A DNA stretch of 64,000 nucleotides from Gemmatimonadaceae bacterium. GTDB taxonomy: Bacteria; Gemmatimonadota; Gemmatimonadetes; Gemmatimonadales; Gemmatimonadaceae. A model generated the notes under the pieces. It saw only the letters and a list, made by a program, of their open reading frames with translations. It was not told where the DNA came from and did not search any database. The position numbers were made by a program, and so were the translations under genes. The stretch spans positions 1,647,586 through 1,711,585 of the forward strand of contig JAHBVS010000001.1 of the NCBI GenBank assembly GCA_019637445.1, given 5' to 3'. Positions 49,185 through 55,623 of the stretch are shown here, in pieces. Within the stretch, counting starts at the first letter, position 1; each line of letters opens with the position of its first letter.

Positions 49185-50579
49185 TTGGCGGAGCTTCGTT
49201 ACGGCGCATTTAACGGTAGAACCGCGAGCGAGGAGGAGATTCTCGCGTTCGCGCGCAAGTTGCGCGGTAAGTCGCTGCGCGAGGTGCTGCCAGCCAGCGG
49301 TCGCATGATGGAATCGTCGGCCGGCGACAAGGGACGAGTCGGCCAGCTTGTCGAGCGCGCGTTCGGCCTTCCCCGAAGCAGCGAACAAGGGCCGGACTTC
49401 ACGCATTCGGGCATCGAACTGAAAGCCGTTCCGCTCAAGCGCAGCTCCCGGTCAGTGCGAGCGAAGGAGCGCACCAGCGTGACGATGATTGACTACGACG
49501 CGCTGGTGGATGAGACGTGGCAGAAGGCGAAAGTCCGACAGAAGCTGCACAAGATTCTCTTCGTGTTCTTCTTTCACTTGGATGCCGGGCATCCGCTGGA
49601 CACTGTGATTGAAGAGGTCGTGCTTTGGACGCCACCGCAAGACCTCGTTCCGCAGCTTGAGACGGATTGGTCGGCGGTTCAGCAGAAGGTGCTCGATGGT
49701 CTCGCACATGAAATCTCGGAGGGCGACGGTCGGGTGCTCGGTGCAGCCACGAAGGGAGCGGGGCGTGGCCAGCTCGTGCGCCAGCCAAAGAGCTCCGTGC
49801 GGGCGAGGCCTCGTGTCTGGGCTCTCAAGCCTTCGCTGACCACATGGCTCTGGGAGCGGGAGCGGCTCGGCAATCGCGAGGTGGTTGACCTTCGGAGCGC
49901 CTTGAAGCTCACCGCCAAGCAGAGCTTCGAAGAAGTGGTGATTCAACGCCTCGACGGATACCGTGGCAGGACACTGGCAGGAATATCAGAGGCGCTGGGT
50001 GTACCGCTCAGCAGAGCGAAGTCTGGCGCCGCGGTTCTTGTTCGACGCGCCATCGGTGTGCTCGACGACCGCGCTGCGATTCGCGAGTTCAAGGAGCGCG
50101 GTATTCAAGTCAAGATTGTTCCGATCTCGCCGGCTGGGCGTCCGTATGAGGCGATGTCATTTCCGAAGTTCAATCATATGGAGGTATGGAAGGAGGAGTG
50201 GGACGAAAGCGAGTTCCTTCAGCACCTCAGCCGTCTGCTCATAGTGCCCTTGATTCGGGAGAAGCGGTCTTCTCCGAAAGAGACTCAACTGTGGGGCTCT
50301 GCATTCTTCTGGTCACCATCGCCCACGGAGCTTGCCGGCATAGAGGATGAGTGGCGCATGTACGCCAAGCTGATTGAGGATGGCAAAGCAAATGACCTGC
50401 CGGGGAGCGGAGAGACTCGGTTCATTCACGTAAGGCCGCATGGCAGGGACGGAAGCGACACCGAGGAAGCTCCGCGAGTGGGGCACGTCGTGAAGAAGTG
50501 CTTCTGGCTGAATACCGACTTCGTCGCGCGGCTCGTACAGGAGAATCACGGCGCGGGGGTCTCGCCGCGGAGATCTTGA
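49185..50579 (+). CDS. Sau3AI/MutH-like type II restriction endonuclease
   Basis: This 464-residue protein matches the Sau3AI family in length and two-part design. The N-terminal MutH-like domain has Glu57 (VGQLVERAFG) and the catalytic Asp71-x6-Glu78-x-Lys80 (PDFTHSGIELK), the same spacing as E. coli MutH Asp70/Glu77/Lys79. The C-terminal half would be the second, non-catalytic MutH-like domain. GATC is the expected target by family. The start is TTG at 49185 with an AGGTGA upstream. Its cognate methyltransferase is probably at 53690-55024, on the other strand. Confidence 0.87.
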   Translation: MAELRYGAFNGRTASEEEILAFARKLRGKSLREVLPASGRMMESSAGDKGRVGQLVERAFGLPRSSEQGPDFTHSGIELKAVPLKRSSRSVRAKERTSVTMIDYDALVDETWQKAKVRQKLHKILFVFFFHLDAGHPLDTVIEEVVLWTPPQDLVPQLETDWSAVQQKVLDGLAHEISEGDGRVLGAATKGAGRGQLVRQPKSSVRARPRVWALKPSLTTWLWERERLGNREVVDLRSALKLTAKQSFEEVVIQRLDGYRGRTLAGISEALGVPLSRAKSGAAVLVRRAIGVLDDRAAIREFKERGIQVKIVPISPAGRPYEAMSFPKFNHMEVWKEEWDESEFLQHLSRLLIVPLIREKRSSPKETQLWGSAFFWSPSPTELAGIEDEWRMYAKLIEDGKANDLPGSGETRFIHVRPHGRDGSDTEEAPRVGHVVKKCFWLNTDFVARLVQENHGAGVSPRRS

Positions 50580-50657
50580 TCTTTCGCGAGTTGAGTTGTA
50601 TATTCCGCGCGATTCCGGGCCCTGCGACTCTCCAGCCTGTACCAAGGAGAGTGAAGG

Positions 50658-50918
50658 ATGCGGTGGCGCCCTTATAGTGGGTTTCGGATTGAGAAGCCGG
50701 GGTTCCGGACCTCCGTGGCGATTCGGGCGGCCTACTGGTATTGGCCGCCTACACGGGTCTACGGATGTGTGTGGCAAGCCGCCGACGGGTGGAGAGCCTA
50801 CTGCGAACGGCATCTGCCCGGTCAGGTCGAGGATGTCGAGCTCGGTCTGTACGCTACTCAGCGTGATGCGAGAGTTGCGGTTGTTGCAGCGCTCAAGAAG
50901 CGATTGCTTAAGTCTTAA
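50658..50918 (+). CDS. Small hypothetical protein, 86 residues
   Basis: A short basic and aromatic-rich protein (RWRPYSGFRIEKPGF, AYWYWPPTRVYGCVW, LKKRLLKS). A good ribosome-binding site (aaggagagtgaagg) lies just before ATG 50658, and the stop is TAA. No family is recognised. It lies between the restriction endonuclease and the nuclease-like gene, in the lower-GC island. The ribosome-binding site makes it a credible gene; function unknown. Confidence 0.6.
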   Translation: MRWRPYSGFRIEKPGFRTSVAIRAAYWYWPPTRVYGCVWQAADGWRAYCERHLPGQVEDVELGLYATQRDARVAVVAALKKRLLKS

Positions 50919-51034
50919 GATCTTCAGCCGCTGAGCGGTGCAGTTCGCTCTGTTGATCTGACGCCTCCTCGCGGTTCGTCGAGTGGCGGTTCTCGAAATA
51001 CTGGATCAAGACCCGCCGTCCGCGGCATTCGTCG

Positions 51035-51496
51035 TCATGCGCCCGCTCCGCGACGCTTCTTCTTCGCCTTGCCGAGCGCAGCGTCGATTAGGTCCCAGCG
51101 CTCGCGGTACTGATCGAGGTTCTTGACATCACGGTTCATCACGCGCGTCCCCCACACCTTGTCCGTGCTTAAGGCTCGCTTGATGACTCGTATAGGCAGA
51201 ACGTGATAGTCGGGCGGCTTCACCACTCCCGTTCCCTGCTTGTTCCCGCGGTTGAGTCGCACGTAAACGACGAAGTCACAGTCAAGATTGCGGATTGCGA
51301 ACCCGCGAGCCGTCGTGCTCCAGCGGCTCTTAACCTGAATCTTGACCGACTTGCCGGCTGCCGGGTTGGTCGCGACTAGGTCGTACCCCGGCATATTCGT
51401 GTACGTCTTGTATGCGACGACGCGATGCAGTAGGAGCTGCCCGAGCACCAGGAACTCAGCTCCCTCTGACTCAAGTCGAGTATCCAGTCTTGTCAT
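51035..51496 (-). CDS. PD-(D/E)XK-nuclease-like protein
   Basis: The 153-residue protein starts at MTRLDTRLESEG (51496). It carries a plausible PD-(D/E)XK core: EGAEF, then MPGYDLVATNP with Asp39, and VKIQVKSRW with Gln54-x-Lys56. A basic tail (GKAKKKRRGAGA) follows. It resembles restriction-endonuclease-fold proteins of unknown specificity. A similar motif layout is seen in the gene at 53232. The open frame upstream of 51496 has no similarity and is not used. Confidence 0.62.
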   Translation of the reverse strand: MTRLDTRLESEGAEFLVLGQLLLHRVVAYKTYTNMPGYDLVATNPAAGKSVKIQVKSRWSTTARGFAIRNLDCDFVVYVRLNRGNKQGTGVVKPPDYHVLPIRVIKRALSTDKVWGTRVMNRDVKNLDQYRERWDLIDAALGKAKKKRRGAGA

Positions 51497-52099
51497 CGCA
51501 CTCAAGAGATAGATAGGACTGAGGGCACGGGCCTGCTTCTGTGCGCATAAGCTTTGCTTTAGCTGCGGACGCTTCAACAAAATGCGGGAGCGAGGCGCGC
51601 GCCAGGCCAACCGAGGGCAGTCGGCGCGCGCCGCGCTCTCGCTTTCCTACCGCGGCCCGTCAGCTGCAAGCTTCGTTACTCGGCATCTCGGTGCATGCCT
51701 GCGCCGTCTCGGATGAAGATCATGACGTCGGCTGGATTCACAGCTGTTCGTGTTGCTGGCCTGCCAGAGTGAGCGCGCGGCATCGTCATCACCGTCATGA
51801 TTCTCTTCTTCTTCCTCTTCTTCTTACCCTCCTTCTTCTCGCTCCTCTCGTTCCTCTCCTTCTACGCACCGAACTTCCGGTCCTTCTTGTTGCATGAGTC
51901 GCGGTAGAACTCTGACCATCCGCTCCAGCAGCCCGTTTCCGCCAGTCACCAGGTTCCATCGTAAGTGCTTGCGTAATAGGGAATTACCATTTCGTAGTGT
52001 ATACACTGTTGCGTTGACTTGTATTAACAGTCTATAAGCTGTAAATATAGCAAATGATTACAGTTCGTAAGCTGTTAACTGGCTTCTGAAGAGAAAACC
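51497..52099. other. Gene-free spacer with polypyrimidine tract
   Basis: This 603-bp spacer between divergent genes contains no convincing gene. Short open frames give low-complexity Leu/Pro strings. At 51801-51864 the plus strand is nearly all pyrimidine (ttctcttcttcttcctcttc and on), an extended homopurine-homopyrimidine stretch. From about 51960 it becomes AT-rich and holds the promoter and operators of the XRE gene. Confidence 0.7.
52009..52078 (+). promoter_or_regulatory. Promoter with two tandem operator dyads
   Basis: Two matching inverted repeats lie 33 bp apart centre to centre: ttaacag-N8-ctgtaaa (52024-52045) and attacag-N8-ctgttaa (52057-52078). A TATAAG -10 box (52033-52038) lies inside the first, with a possible TTGCGT -35 (52009-52014) 18 bp before it. 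The spacing is about three helical turns, so cooperative binding of the XRE protein encoded just downstream is likely. Confidence 0.65.
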
Positions 52100-52576
52100 G
52101 TGAAAAGAGCTATGAGATCCCCACGAAAGTCTCCAGAGATGCTCGCCCTACAAAGACGGCAGCTTGATGGTCGGCTAAAGCGGCTGCCAAATATGGAAGC
52201 GCCAAGGGACGGCTGGATTCGTACGATTCGCGAAGCCCTGGGGATGACGATGACGCAGCTTGCAAAGCGCATGGGGATATCCCCTCAGTCGCTCAGGAGC
52301 CTCGAGGAACGAGAACGGGCAGGCACAATCTCGATTTCGAAGTTGATTAAAGCTGCGGAAGCGATGGACTGTGAACTCAAGCTTGTTCTCGCACCGAAAA
52401 CCTCACTCGAAGAGACGGTGCACCAGCAGGCTGTACGCAAGGCAAGGCAGCAGCGGAATCGCCTGCTCCACACGATGCATTTGGAGTCGCAAGCGGAAGG
52501 GGTAAGCGAGGTGTTGGAGGAGGAGCGTGCCGTCGACCTGTGGAAAACCAAGCGAGCAAGCCGGCTGTGGGATTGA
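52100..52576 (+). CDS. XRE-family regulator (mobile mystery protein A type)
   Basis: The 158-residue protein has a helix-turn-helix XRE domain (GMTMTQLAKRMGISPQSLRSLEERERAGTI) and a basic C-terminal helix. Its layout matches the family called mobile mystery protein A, usually next to a Fic protein. It likely represses its own operon through the dyads upstream and may neutralise the Fic partner. The start is GTG at 52100 or ATG at 52112. The next gene starts four bp after the stop. Confidence 0.82.
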   Translation: MKRAMRSPRKSPEMLALQRRQLDGRLKRLPNMEAPRDGWIRTIREALGMTMTQLAKRMGISPQSLRSLEERERAGTISISKLIKAAEAMDCELKLVLAPKTSLEETVHQQAVRKARQQRNRLLHTMHLESQAEGVSEVLEEERAVDLWKTKRASRLWD

Positions 52577-52579
52577 CCT

Positions 52580-53191
52580 ATGGAACGCGAGGCTCTCGGT
52601 GAATCGCACTCGGGCGATGGCAACACAACGCTAGATGAAGACGAGGTCGACGGGCTCATTCCAGCACATCTGCAGACTCGCGCAGAACTCAATCAGTGGG
52701 AGGGGAAGAACATTGAACTCGCTATAGACTGGATTGCTGGTCGAACACTCGACGTCTTGGATATTGCGATACTGAAGGAGTTGCACCGCCGGATGTTTGG
52801 GCAGACGTGGGAGTGGGCGGGGAAATACAGGAAGACAATGAAAACCGTCTCGCCGTTCTCCGCACCGGAAGTTCCACGGCTTATGGTGGACCTCATCAAT
52901 AACACGAAGGCCCAGTACGAAGCTTGCAACGGCGATGGCGACGAGCTCGACCGTACTGCAGCGCGATTCCACCACGAACTTGTAAGAATCCATCCGTGGC
53001 CTAACGGCAATGGTAGGCACGGGCGGATGGCGACAGATCTTCTGCTAAAGATGTGGAAGCGCGCCCCGTTCAGTTGGGGTGCAATGAGCGAAGATACGGA
53101 GCCGGCGATAACGCGAGCTCGCTATCTCAAGGCTTTGGTTCGGGCGGACGCGAACGAGTATGCAGAGCTCTACGAGTTTGTGCGCTCTTAG
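52580..53191 (+). CDS. Fic-domain protein (mobile mystery protein B type)
   Basis: This 203-residue protein has the Fic motif HPWPNGNGRHGR at 138-149, which is complete (His138 catalytic, GNGR phosphate loop). The flap and N-terminal helices are typical (GQTWEWAGKYRKTMKTVS). Fic enzymes transfer AMP or similar groups to target proteins. No canonical inhibitory motif (S/T-x3-E-G/N) is obvious here, so the upstream XRE protein may control it. It is paired with the XRE gene and converges on the nuclease-like gene at 53232. Confidence 0.87.
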   Translation: MEREALGESHSGDGNTTLDEDEVDGLIPAHLQTRAELNQWEGKNIELAIDWIAGRTLDVLDIAILKELHRRMFGQTWEWAGKYRKTMKTVSPFSAPEVPRLMVDLINNTKAQYEACNGDGDELDRTAARFHHELVRIHPWPNGNGRHGRMATDLLLKMWKRAPFSWGAMSEDTEPAITRARYLKALVRADANEYAELYEFVRS

Positions 53192-53231
53192 GATAGAGAT
53201 CGCACAACGTATGCTTCTGCTGAGGGCCAAC

Positions 53232-53666
53232 CTAGAAGCGCCTCAGGTCCCAGTTGTCTTCATACTGCAAGAGTGGCTCCTGCTGGAGTTTCCGCCAGGA
53301 TATTTCGCGGTACCACGCGTCCTTACGGCGCGGACCGGGAACGTTTGCATTCGCCAACGCGACGTCGAAGGGCACCACCCATGCGCGTGGCTTCTCCTTG
53401 CGCGCCTTGAAGATGAGCACAATCCATTCGACGGTCTGACGGTCATCGAAGTTGAACCAACTGTTCGCATCCCAGCTCTTGGTGTCGCTTCGAGTCTTGA
53501 CGCTAATCCGAAGAAGGCCTGACCCTCCCTCGACTGCTAGGTCATAGCCCTCCCAGTTGTCTGGCATCTTCGCGGCCGATTTGCCCGAAAAGCTGAACTG
53601 GCTGAGCGCGTAGTGCTCGCCGGCGTCACCAAGCAGCTTGGAGGATGTCGATACTCGCGGCTTCAT
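53232..53666 (-). CDS. PD-(D/E)XK-nuclease-like protein downstream of the methyltransferase
   Basis: This 144-residue protein starts at MKPRVSTSSK (53666). It carries a candidate nuclease core: GDAGEHYALSQ with Glu17, WEGYDLAVEGG with Asp42, and LRISVKTRSD with Lys57, reminiscent of the protein at 51035. It begins 23 bp after the methyltransferase stop on the same strand, so both are probably co-expressed. It may be a companion nuclease or an accessory factor of the R-M system; function is not known. Confidence 0.6.
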   Translation of the reverse strand: MKPRVSTSSKLLGDAGEHYALSQFSFSGKSAAKMPDNWEGYDLAVEGGSGLLRISVKTRSDTKSWDANSWFNFDDRQTVEWIVLIFKARKEKPRAWVVPFDVALANANVPGPRRKDAWYREISWRKLQQEPLLQYEDNWDLRRF

Positions 53667-53689
53667 CTGGGCAATCGGGAGAACGTGGA

Positions 53690-55024
53690 TCAGCCAGCAA
53701 GCGCACCGGACCGCCCGGAACAACTAAGATGCGCGCGCACCGCAACCTCAGCCGCGATGGCTTCGACAAGCCCAATAACGAGCGCGTTACCCATGCAGAA
53801 CGCCCGCTGGCCGTCACTCATGCCCGTGGCAGTGTGGTTGTCTGGAAATCCGCTCAACCTTTCGAGCTCAACCGGCGTCAGTCGCCGGTATCCTCCGCCT
53901 TTCGCGGGGACTATGTGCTTTGACCGGCTAGGCGACGCGCCACCTTCAGATGTGAGGATGGTCCGAGATGCTTTGTCCGCCGGATCCGGAAAGGGCAGCG
54001 CCCCTTCCGTATAGAAGTACGTGAAGCCACTAGCCTTGTGGACGCGGTGTTCGGCCTTTGCACCCTTCGCCTTTTTCCACTTCGGTAACGCCGCGTCATC
54101 GACAAGGAACTGCTCCGGCACGTCTCCACGCTCCAGCACGTCGCGCAACGTCTGGTAGCGCCCGTTGAACTTCGGCTTCGGGTTGTAAGTCCACACGACC
54201 CGCTTCCGGTGCTTTCCGACGCCGACCGTGCGCACGAAACCCGCCTGGCCAAACCGAGTCCGCTCCACACCGCGCCCGAACTCGGCAGAGATCTCGTGTA
54301 CTTCCCCCGTCAGCTCAAAGTGCTCAGGCTCCGATAGGTCGAGCCGGTTTTCCGCCTGCACAGGCAGTGCGCGCGCGAATACACCATTCTCGTAGGCGAC
54401 GCTCGCGCCATTTGCCTTTCCCTTCGACTGCCGCCGCGCAACGATGAACACGCGCCGACGTCGCTGCGGAAATCCGTAGTCCGCGGCATTCACGACGCGC
54501 CACTCAACCTCGTATCCGAGATCGCAGAGACTCGCGAGCATGATGGCGAAGTCGCGCCCGCGCTGATTCGCGGGAGACTTGATCAGTCGGTCAACGTTCT
54601 CGAGGAACACCCACTCGGCCGGACGCTTCTTGTCCTTAAGCAGGCGGAGCAGCCGGTGAATCTCCCACCAAAGCACGCCCTTCTTGCCGATGAGACCGGC
54701 TGACTGGTTCAGCGGCTTCGCGACAGAGTAGTCCTGACAGGGGAAGCCACCGACAACCATGTCGATGAGGGGCAGCTTCCGTTCGCCGCGCTCGACAGCA
54801 TCGAGAACCTTGGCAATGTCTTCGTTGCTGTGGCCGTTGGGACCAAAACGCTCGACATAGCATCGCGACGCGAATTGCTTCGCGTCCGTTCCCGGTGGCT
54901 CCCACTGACTGCTGAACACGGTGACGAAGTCCTTCGACACCCGCTCCAAGCCGATGCGGAACCCACCGACCCCCGCGAATAGTTCGGCAACACGAAGCTG
55001 CTTCTTCTTTCCCTTCGTCGGCAT
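53690..55024 (-). CDS. DNA cytosine-5 methyltransferase, probable GATC
   Basis: The 444-residue enzyme shows the C5-methyltransferase motifs in order: ELFAGVGGFRIGLE (SAM), GGFPCQDYS with catalytic Cys96, FLENVDRLI, QRRRRVFIVAR, and the C-terminal RRLTPVELERLSGFPD and GNALV. Segments such as GLIGKKGVLWWEI and KSPANQRGRDFAIMLASL recall M.Sau3AI. Together with the Sau3AI-like endonuclease at 49185, a GATC specificity is inferred. ATG at 55024. It diverges from the MarR gene. Confidence 0.88.
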   Translation of the reverse strand: MPTKGKKKQLRVAELFAGVGGFRIGLERVSKDFVTVFSSQWEPPGTDAKQFASRCYVERFGPNGHSNEDIAKVLDAVERGERKLPLIDMVVGGFPCQDYSVAKPLNQSAGLIGKKGVLWWEIHRLLRLLKDKKRPAEWVFLENVDRLIKSPANQRGRDFAIMLASLCDLGYEVEWRVVNAADYGFPQRRRRVFIVARRQSKGKANGASVAYENGVFARALPVQAENRLDLSEPEHFELTGEVHEISAEFGRGVERTRFGQAGFVRTVGVGKHRKRVVWTYNPKPKFNGRYQTLRDVLERGDVPEQFLVDDAALPKWKKAKGAKAEHRVHKASGFTYFYTEGALPFPDPADKASRTILTSEGGASPSRSKHIVPAKGGGYRRLTPVELERLSGFPDNHTATGMSDGQRAFCMGNALVIGLVEAIAAEVAVRAHLSCSGRSGALAG

Positions 55025-55146: not shown

Positions 55147-55623
55147 ATGTCACTTGCACACCGATCAGACCCCCTCCACCTCTACATCGTCCTCTCCCGG
55201 GCGTCCGAAACCCTGCACGCCCACACCAAGGCCGACATCGAATCCCACGGCCTGACCCAAACCGAGTTCGCCATCCTCGAGGCCCTCTACCACAAGGGCC
55301 CGATGCTCCTCAACGAGGTCCAAAAGAAGATCCTCGTGAGCTCCGGCGGCATCACCTTCCTTATAGACAAGCTCGAGAAGCGCGGCCTGGTCGAACGCCG
55401 CCCCTGCGAGTCCGATCGCCGAGCCCGCTGGGCCGCCCTCACCGCCGAGGGTGAGCAGCTCATGAAGGAGATCTTCCCCGGCCACGCCGAGGTCATTCGC
55501 CGTGTGGTCTCCGGCCTGACTCCCGAGGAGCAGGAGCAGCTCGCGGCCCTGGCCAAGAAGCTCGGCCTCAGCGCCGCCGCCCTCCCGGTCGAACCCTCCG
55601 GAACCGCCAAGGCCGGGAACTGA
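55147..55623 (+). CDS. MarR-family regulator
   Basis: This 158-residue winged-helix protein is MarR-type: LTQTEFAILEALYHKGPMLLNEVQKKILVSSGGITFLIDKLEKRGLVERR. It resembles regulators such as MhqR/HosA that control aromatic or quinone responses. The next genes are an MhqO-like ring-cleaving dioxygenase and YceI, and the likely operator lies before the dioxygenase. It may be co-transcribed or separately promoted. Cys89 in RRPCESDRR is a possible sensor. Confidence 0.87.
   Translation: MSLAHRSDPLHLYIVLSRASETLHAHTKADIESHGLTQTEFAILEALYHKGPMLLNEVQKKILVSSGGITFLIDKLEKRGLVERRPCESDRRARWAALTAEGEQLMKEIFPGHAEVIRRVVSGLTPEEQEQLAALAKKLGLSAAALPVEPSGTAKAGN

Follow-up and report, generated by a model that had tools for sequence, protein, structure and literature searches.

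A convergent Sau3AI-type restriction-modification pair that probably brackets an exchangeable slot, here holding an integron-cassette remnant

The 64,000-nucleotide stretch of Gemmatimonadaceae DNA analysed here (the window; contig JAHBVS010000001.1, positions 1,647,586 to 1,711,585, from a source genome, G000, of 3.35 Mb in 7 contigs) raises the question of why the two genes of a Sau3AI-type restriction-modification (R-M) system should face each other across a set of other genes. The Sau3AI-family endonuclease gene (R) and the DNA cytosine-5 (m5C) methyltransferase gene (M) are convergent and, in the window's list of open reading frames (ORFs), lie 3110 bp apart, on the strands and at the distance of about 3.1 kb given in an earlier note on this DNA. 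The interval contains an 86-amino-acid ORF, a small PD-(D/E)XK-like gene (PD1), an XRE-Fic 'mobile mystery' pair and a second small PD-(D/E)XK-like gene (PD2). Read along the strand of M, the order is M, PD2, a half attC site, Fic-XRE (antisense), a complete attC site, PD1, a doubtful attC trace, the 86-residue ORF (antisense) and R. The earlier note had proposed either a mosaic defence island or an R-M pair opened by insertion, and both halves of this proposal find support, in a cargo swap with the relative G005 and in a near-adjacent pair in the relative G010. The arrangement is probably best explained by a convergent R-M pair that brackets an exchangeable slot, filled in this genome by an integron-cassette remnant.

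R (49185–50579, plus strand; 464 residues, TTG start) scores 271.9 bits (E 1e-80) against NF040973, slightly below the curated cut-off of 300 bits, and matches the solved Sau3AI structure 4PXG across 425 residues (E 3e-45). Both MutH-like halves are matched (MutH domain E 1e-35), and the MutH-like catalytic residues E57, D71, E78 and K80 are kept in all three genus homologues. M (53690–55024, minus strand; 444 residues) is a DNA cytosine-5 methyltransferase according to TIGR00675 (202 bits, above cut-off), with intact catalytic motifs (PCQ, ENV, QRRRR and GNAL). When 84,980 species genomes were scanned with an alignment of R, 74 loci were returned, and 65 R-M pairs were tabulated; in these, methyltransferases of the M family are paired with R in convergent, tandem, divergent or fused arrangements. 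M is taken as the cognate enzyme of R mainly because the same two families pair in these 65 loci, and this pairing, together with family membership, suggests that the system is GATC-specific. The statement that Sau3AI-type genes are usually adjacent stood for 45 of the 65 pairs, which are separated by no more than 300 bp, and failed for the other 20, whose gap exceeds 300 bp. Five related clostridial M genes (L040, L049, L053, L078 and L084) consist of two ORFs with the break in the target-recognition region, one covering model positions to 202 and the other those from about 275, an organization that resembles two-subunit m5C methyltransferases.

The locus stands out in composition, as had been proposed: the island spans 49.0 to about 55.1 kb with a GC content of 54–63% (1-kb windows, 49–56 kb), compared with a fraction of 0.678 in the rest of the window, and third-position GC is 63–74% in the island against about 87% in flanking genes. 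Among 298 phylum genomes, R is certain in 3, which belong to one genus, and the other 295 give a single match at E = 1e-3. Gene order varies among these same-genus genomes, and neither a constant gene order nor uniform GC, both named in the earlier note as refuting outcomes, was seen. In G010 the R-M pair lies at another site with a gap of 393 bp that holds Vsr alone, and thus represents the related version with near-adjacent genes that the earlier note had suggested looking for. In G005, R (71% amino-acid identity) and M (82%) adjoin the same MarR-glyoxalase-YceI right flank (75, 89 and 72%), which begins in the window with the MarR regulator gene (55147–55623, plus strand; family search and comparison with relatives). 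The interval between them is filled by other cargo, a 680-residue GHKL ATPase and a DUF4145 gene. The divergence of R and M does not exceed that of their flank (72–89%), and the simplest reading of the comparison is that of an old R-M pair whose interior has been replaced. Left of the G005 pair (L117:9957-15125) lie AbiEii-like genes and another gene resembling m5C methyltransferases, all named by eye.

Turnover of this kind extends well beyond the genus. In Clostridia, R-M pairs of about 90–95% identity hold no cargo, a single gene or several wholly different genes between their stops. Genes found in the R-M gaps include Vsr, a family of about 375 residues, GHKL ATPases, a PLD-SNF2 helicase, and NERD and DEAD helicases, among others; the PLD-SNF2 helicase, which occurs with ParB-like partners, matches PADLOC PbeA (the Vsr assignments outside G010 and the ParB-like and Z1 assignments are our own, made from the sequences). 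Within one clostridial cluster whose R proteins are about 78–99% identical, the interval between R and M is -4, 17, 39, 1132, 5354 bp or about 6.6 kb. L034 and L084 have R genes 95.4% identical to the last base and M genes 93.5% identical, with 1.1 kb (one gene) between them in the former and 5.4 kb (two helicases) in the latter, and L031 carries 6.6 kb between the two stop codons where L052 carries none. In both comparisons (L034/L084 and L031/L052) nucleotide homology stops at or near the R stop and restarts at or near the M stop. The 39-bp gap of L053 consists of the first and last 20 bp or so of the gene carried by L049 and constitutes a deletion scar. Cargo replacement and cargo loss are thus both seen directly. 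Cargo longer than 300 bp occurs in 12 of 22 convergent pairs and in 8 of 43 pairs in other arrangements (Fisher p 0.005, relatedness ignored), a contrast that is not used as proof because 13 of the 22 convergent pairs form one cluster at 80%.

What has filled the slot in the window is indicated by its attC sites. A covariance model (R1) built on 17 sites of the genome's own integron array, none of them from the window, detects a complete attC of the same type at 51545–51681 on the minus strand (100.6 bits, E 6.2e-24), which shows 81–87% identity to the best array copies. One of its cores is mutated from AAC to AAG, and the site may for this reason be weak or dead; its hairpin has a z score of -3.1 against shuffled sequences, compared with -4.4 to -8.5 for three array sites. 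A half attC (53202–53225, minus strand), comprising the L'-R' end with the central hairpin missing, lies 7 bp past the PD2 stop. It is recognized as a 20-mer with three mismatches, a match expected 0.01 times in the whole 64 kb, and its full-length covariance-model score is not significant. Its position follows the habit of the array, where most genes are closely trailed by an attC. A second complete attC was considered at 50911–51037 (minus strand), abutting the PD1 stop, and was not supported (7.4 bits, E 0.46; fold z -2.05; 18-mer half-site with five mismatches); it may represent a strongly degenerate site and is not significant alone. The complete site and the half-site after PD2 identify part of the cargo as integron cassettes, and the cargo is thus at least partly integron-derived. 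The cargo has one full site plus one half-site, where the default of IntegronFinder 2 is two or more, and the authors of that program state that single-attC clusters of attC sites lacking integron-integrases (CALINs) can be genuine. The attC region found no match when searched against plasmids.

The source genome itself encodes an integron (C2:622959-626553 and C3:532-11051), with the integrase IntI and at least 17 attC sites. The array sites, located by their repeat match to the attC at 51545–51681, lie where contig C2 ends and contig C3 begins. IntI (C2:622959-623900) scores 394.8 bits against a curated cut-off of 265 and is oriented like the cassettes, which all point one way. Lone attC sites occur at C2:144394 and C2:382505, and a group of sites near C1:1061193. 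Across the genus, IntI is found in 11 of 17 genomes and attC in 12 of 17; G010 has an attC about 2.2 kb upstream of M. G005 and G012 give 118 and 91 attC matches (both strands counted) in several clusters, marking the genus as integron-rich.

Several observations weigh against an integron-fed, exchangeable slot. Apart from the half-site and the non-significant trace, the complete attC is alone in the cargo, and its core is mutated. Since attC sites are dispersed in this genus, one within a defence island could be a coincidence. No attC was found in the G005 cargo or in the fetched G005 flanks, and integron supply therefore cannot explain the G005 swap. Finally, G000 and G005 have different flanks to the left of R, so the two pairs may have arrived independently. 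This last point leads to the alternative that survives best, namely that R-cargo-M blocks which were related, yet had been assembled separately, arrived at one hotspot in G000 and in G005, with no replacement of cargo in place. The site left of marR does qualify as a hotspot, because R-M-less relatives hold other genes there (a DUF262-like gene in G012, a protease in G003 and a decarboxylase in G006) and the left flank of R is unshared; the R-M genes are moreover AT-richer than their flanks in both G000 and G005. Against separate arrival, R and M have diverged about as much as the flanking orthologues, both pairs are oriented alike, and G000 and G005 align without a break from M across its promoter and intergenic stretch into marR. 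We regard separate arrival as rather unlikely, though it deserves to be kept in mind.

Somewhat less credible is an ordinary defence island that grew by one unrelated insertion after another at the hotspot upstream of marR, in which the attC would be incidental and the slot would have no special role. The gene left of marR is indeed different in every genus member examined, and attC sites are scattered through these genomes. Unrelated insertion fits poorly with the finding that in G000, G005, G010 and many Clostridia it is between the R and M stops that the genes differ, with homology restarting at both ends, and we consider this explanation unlikely. It is very improbable that the cargo genes, rather than being passengers, function as subunits of a single multi-gene restriction system: GHKL ATPases, Vsr and helicases have been linked with R-M genes (Iyer et al. 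2008, PMC2292703) and PD2 lies directly downstream of M, in the place of Vsr in G010 and L018, but cargo is wholly different between near-identical R-M pairs and often absent, and XRE-Fic occurs on plasmids away from R-M pairs (five plasmid examples had none alongside).

In the exchangeable-slot explanation, as their families suggest, M would guard host DNA and R would cut unmethylated GATC sites of incoming DNA; an antiphage function of the locus is predicted. The interval between the two stops would tolerate insertions with neither gene harmed; genes there come, go and are exchanged, and R and M stay. Because an R-M system is an addiction module in which the loss of M or R is costly, a slot flanked by the pair would be shielded from deletion and its interior would be free to change. 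The remnant in the window would comprise PD2 with the half attC, XRE-Fic lying antisense ahead of the complete attC, and PD1. It would most likely have come from the genome's own integron, either by off-target IntI insertion or by rearrangement of the array; off-target insertion by IntI elsewhere in the genome is one proposed origin of orphan cassettes ('The Natural History of Integrons', PMC8618304). We infer IntI as the agent, along with the timing and order of these events. Cassettes on the M strand could be transcribed by read-through from M, and XRE-Fic, which has its own upstream region with a palindrome, would contribute a second addiction or abortive-infection function. Tentatively, and with less confidence than for this locus, convergent Sau3AI-type R and M genes might form a general docking site, acting as homology arms and addiction bookends between which defence or repair cargo is swapped among carriers of the same R-M specificity and into which chromosomal integrons feed cassettes.

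The earlier identification of the XRE/Fic pair holds: the XRE-type regulator gene (52100–52576, plus strand) encodes an antitoxin-like mobile mystery protein A (TIGR02612, 131.6 bits, cut-off 122.6) and the adjacent Fic gene (52580–53191, plus strand) a mobile mystery protein B (TIGR02613, 155.3 bits, cut-off 124.4), so that the two form a mobile mystery A/B pair. The Fic motif, HPWPNGNGRHGR, has N at the position where classical Fic proteins have D/E, and the protein matches the PADLOC candidate family PDC-S04 (E 2e-23). A palindrome upstream of the XRE gene (51996–52007, AGTGTATACACT) is a candidate operator. XRE-Fic relatives occur in 25 other phylum genomes, where the genus-specific model found no attC within the 1.5-kb flanks. 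The likeness of PD1 and PD2 to PD-(D/E)XK proteins proved weak (PF11645, E about 0.002, below cut-off). PD1 (51035–51496, minus strand; about 153 residues, with the motif GYDL...IQVK) is listed as an ORF of 51035–51610 and probably starts at ATG 51496, because its relatives align from about residue 35–39. These relatives, 55–58% identical, lie in prophage contigs among structural genes (L160–L165) and are oriented against the surrounding structural genes in two of three contigs inspected (L160 and L163), a typical moron position; among the phylum genomes, PD1 has one weak match outside this locus. PD2 (53232–53666, minus strand; PF11645 E 0.002) is listed as 53232–53723 and probably starts at ATG 53666, 23 bp past the M stop and not overlapping M. 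It is absent from all others of the 200 phylum genomes searched and has Mesorhizobium plasmid relatives at about 31% identity. The 86-residue ORF (50658–50918, plus strand) has a good Shine-Dalgarno sequence (AAGGAGAGTGAAGG-ATG), and neither family searches nor a search for viral relatives returned a match. The possibility that the cargo genes move elsewhere as one block was rejected on these searches of phylum genomes and plasmids. A transposon or an insertion bounded by direct repeats was likewise rejected: the cargo edges have no flanking repeats of note, no terminal inverted repeats, target duplication or transposase was found there, and no transposase ORF was recognized in the interval.

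Nested defence genes, R-M partner genes and integron defence cassettes are each known; no report joining nested defence genes and integron cassettes in one type II R-M locus was found in open-access text. Sau3AI-like cassettes of Listeria (PMC10059834) contain the same R and M families in a chromosomal hotspot and are described as a plain R-M pair, whereas in the window convergent R and M enclose 3.1 kb of other genes. DarTG2 nested in a type I R-M system (PMC12255303) and the 'guilt-by-embedding' work (PMC12988326) and PADLOC PDC families share with the window a toxin-antitoxin-like pair inside an R-M locus, with a Fic protein matching PDC-S04; unlike them, the host pair here is a type II Sau3AI system with a convergent slot and an attC in the cargo. 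Chromosomal integrons that store antiphage cassettes have been described (Darracq 2025 and Kieffer 2025, as cited in PMC12409362). Such stores and CALINs resemble the present case in the presence of IntI in the genome, attC sites of the same type, and toxin-antitoxin- and nuclease-like cassette genes, but in the window the remnant lies between two R-M genes, on a contig other than that of IntI and the array. The GHKL (MORC/GHKL), Vsr and helicase genes described as operon partners of R-M genes by Iyer 2008 are also those found between R and M in G005, Clostridia and other relatives, except that here such genes replace one another in a single slot from one R-M pair to a close relative. The locus joins two stores of defence genes usually handled separately, R-M islands and chromosomal integrons, and offers a natural experiment on defence-gene exchange, in which two flanking genes are near-constant and the cargo between their stops is replaced, lost or emptied.

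Unknown defence or repair genes may also be sought in the slot, an example being the family of about 375 residues, which has no Pfam match and lies between or beside R and M in eight loci (L034:8790-9920, L041, L049, L050, L075, L077, L078 and L016:7165-8271). A low-confidence model (pLDDT 66) resembles, with weak Foldseek E-values, EVE/YTH-type modified-base readers at its N terminus, as well as EndoMS/MspJI-like nucleases; the family may stand in for Vsr, as a nuclease that depends on mismatches or on modification. On a Lactiplantibacillus plasmid (L159:10614-14907), a Sau3AI R gene is separated by ParB-like and SNF2 genes from a fragment annotated as DNA cytosine methyltransferase, an arrangement that we liken to the ParB-like/SNF2 cargo between clostridial R and M genes. 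To the left of R, positions 26.7–49.0 kb of the window carry several large genes of the Ser/Thr kinase type; G003, G005 and G006 lack this stretch at the equivalent position, so that the variable region extends past the R-M island.

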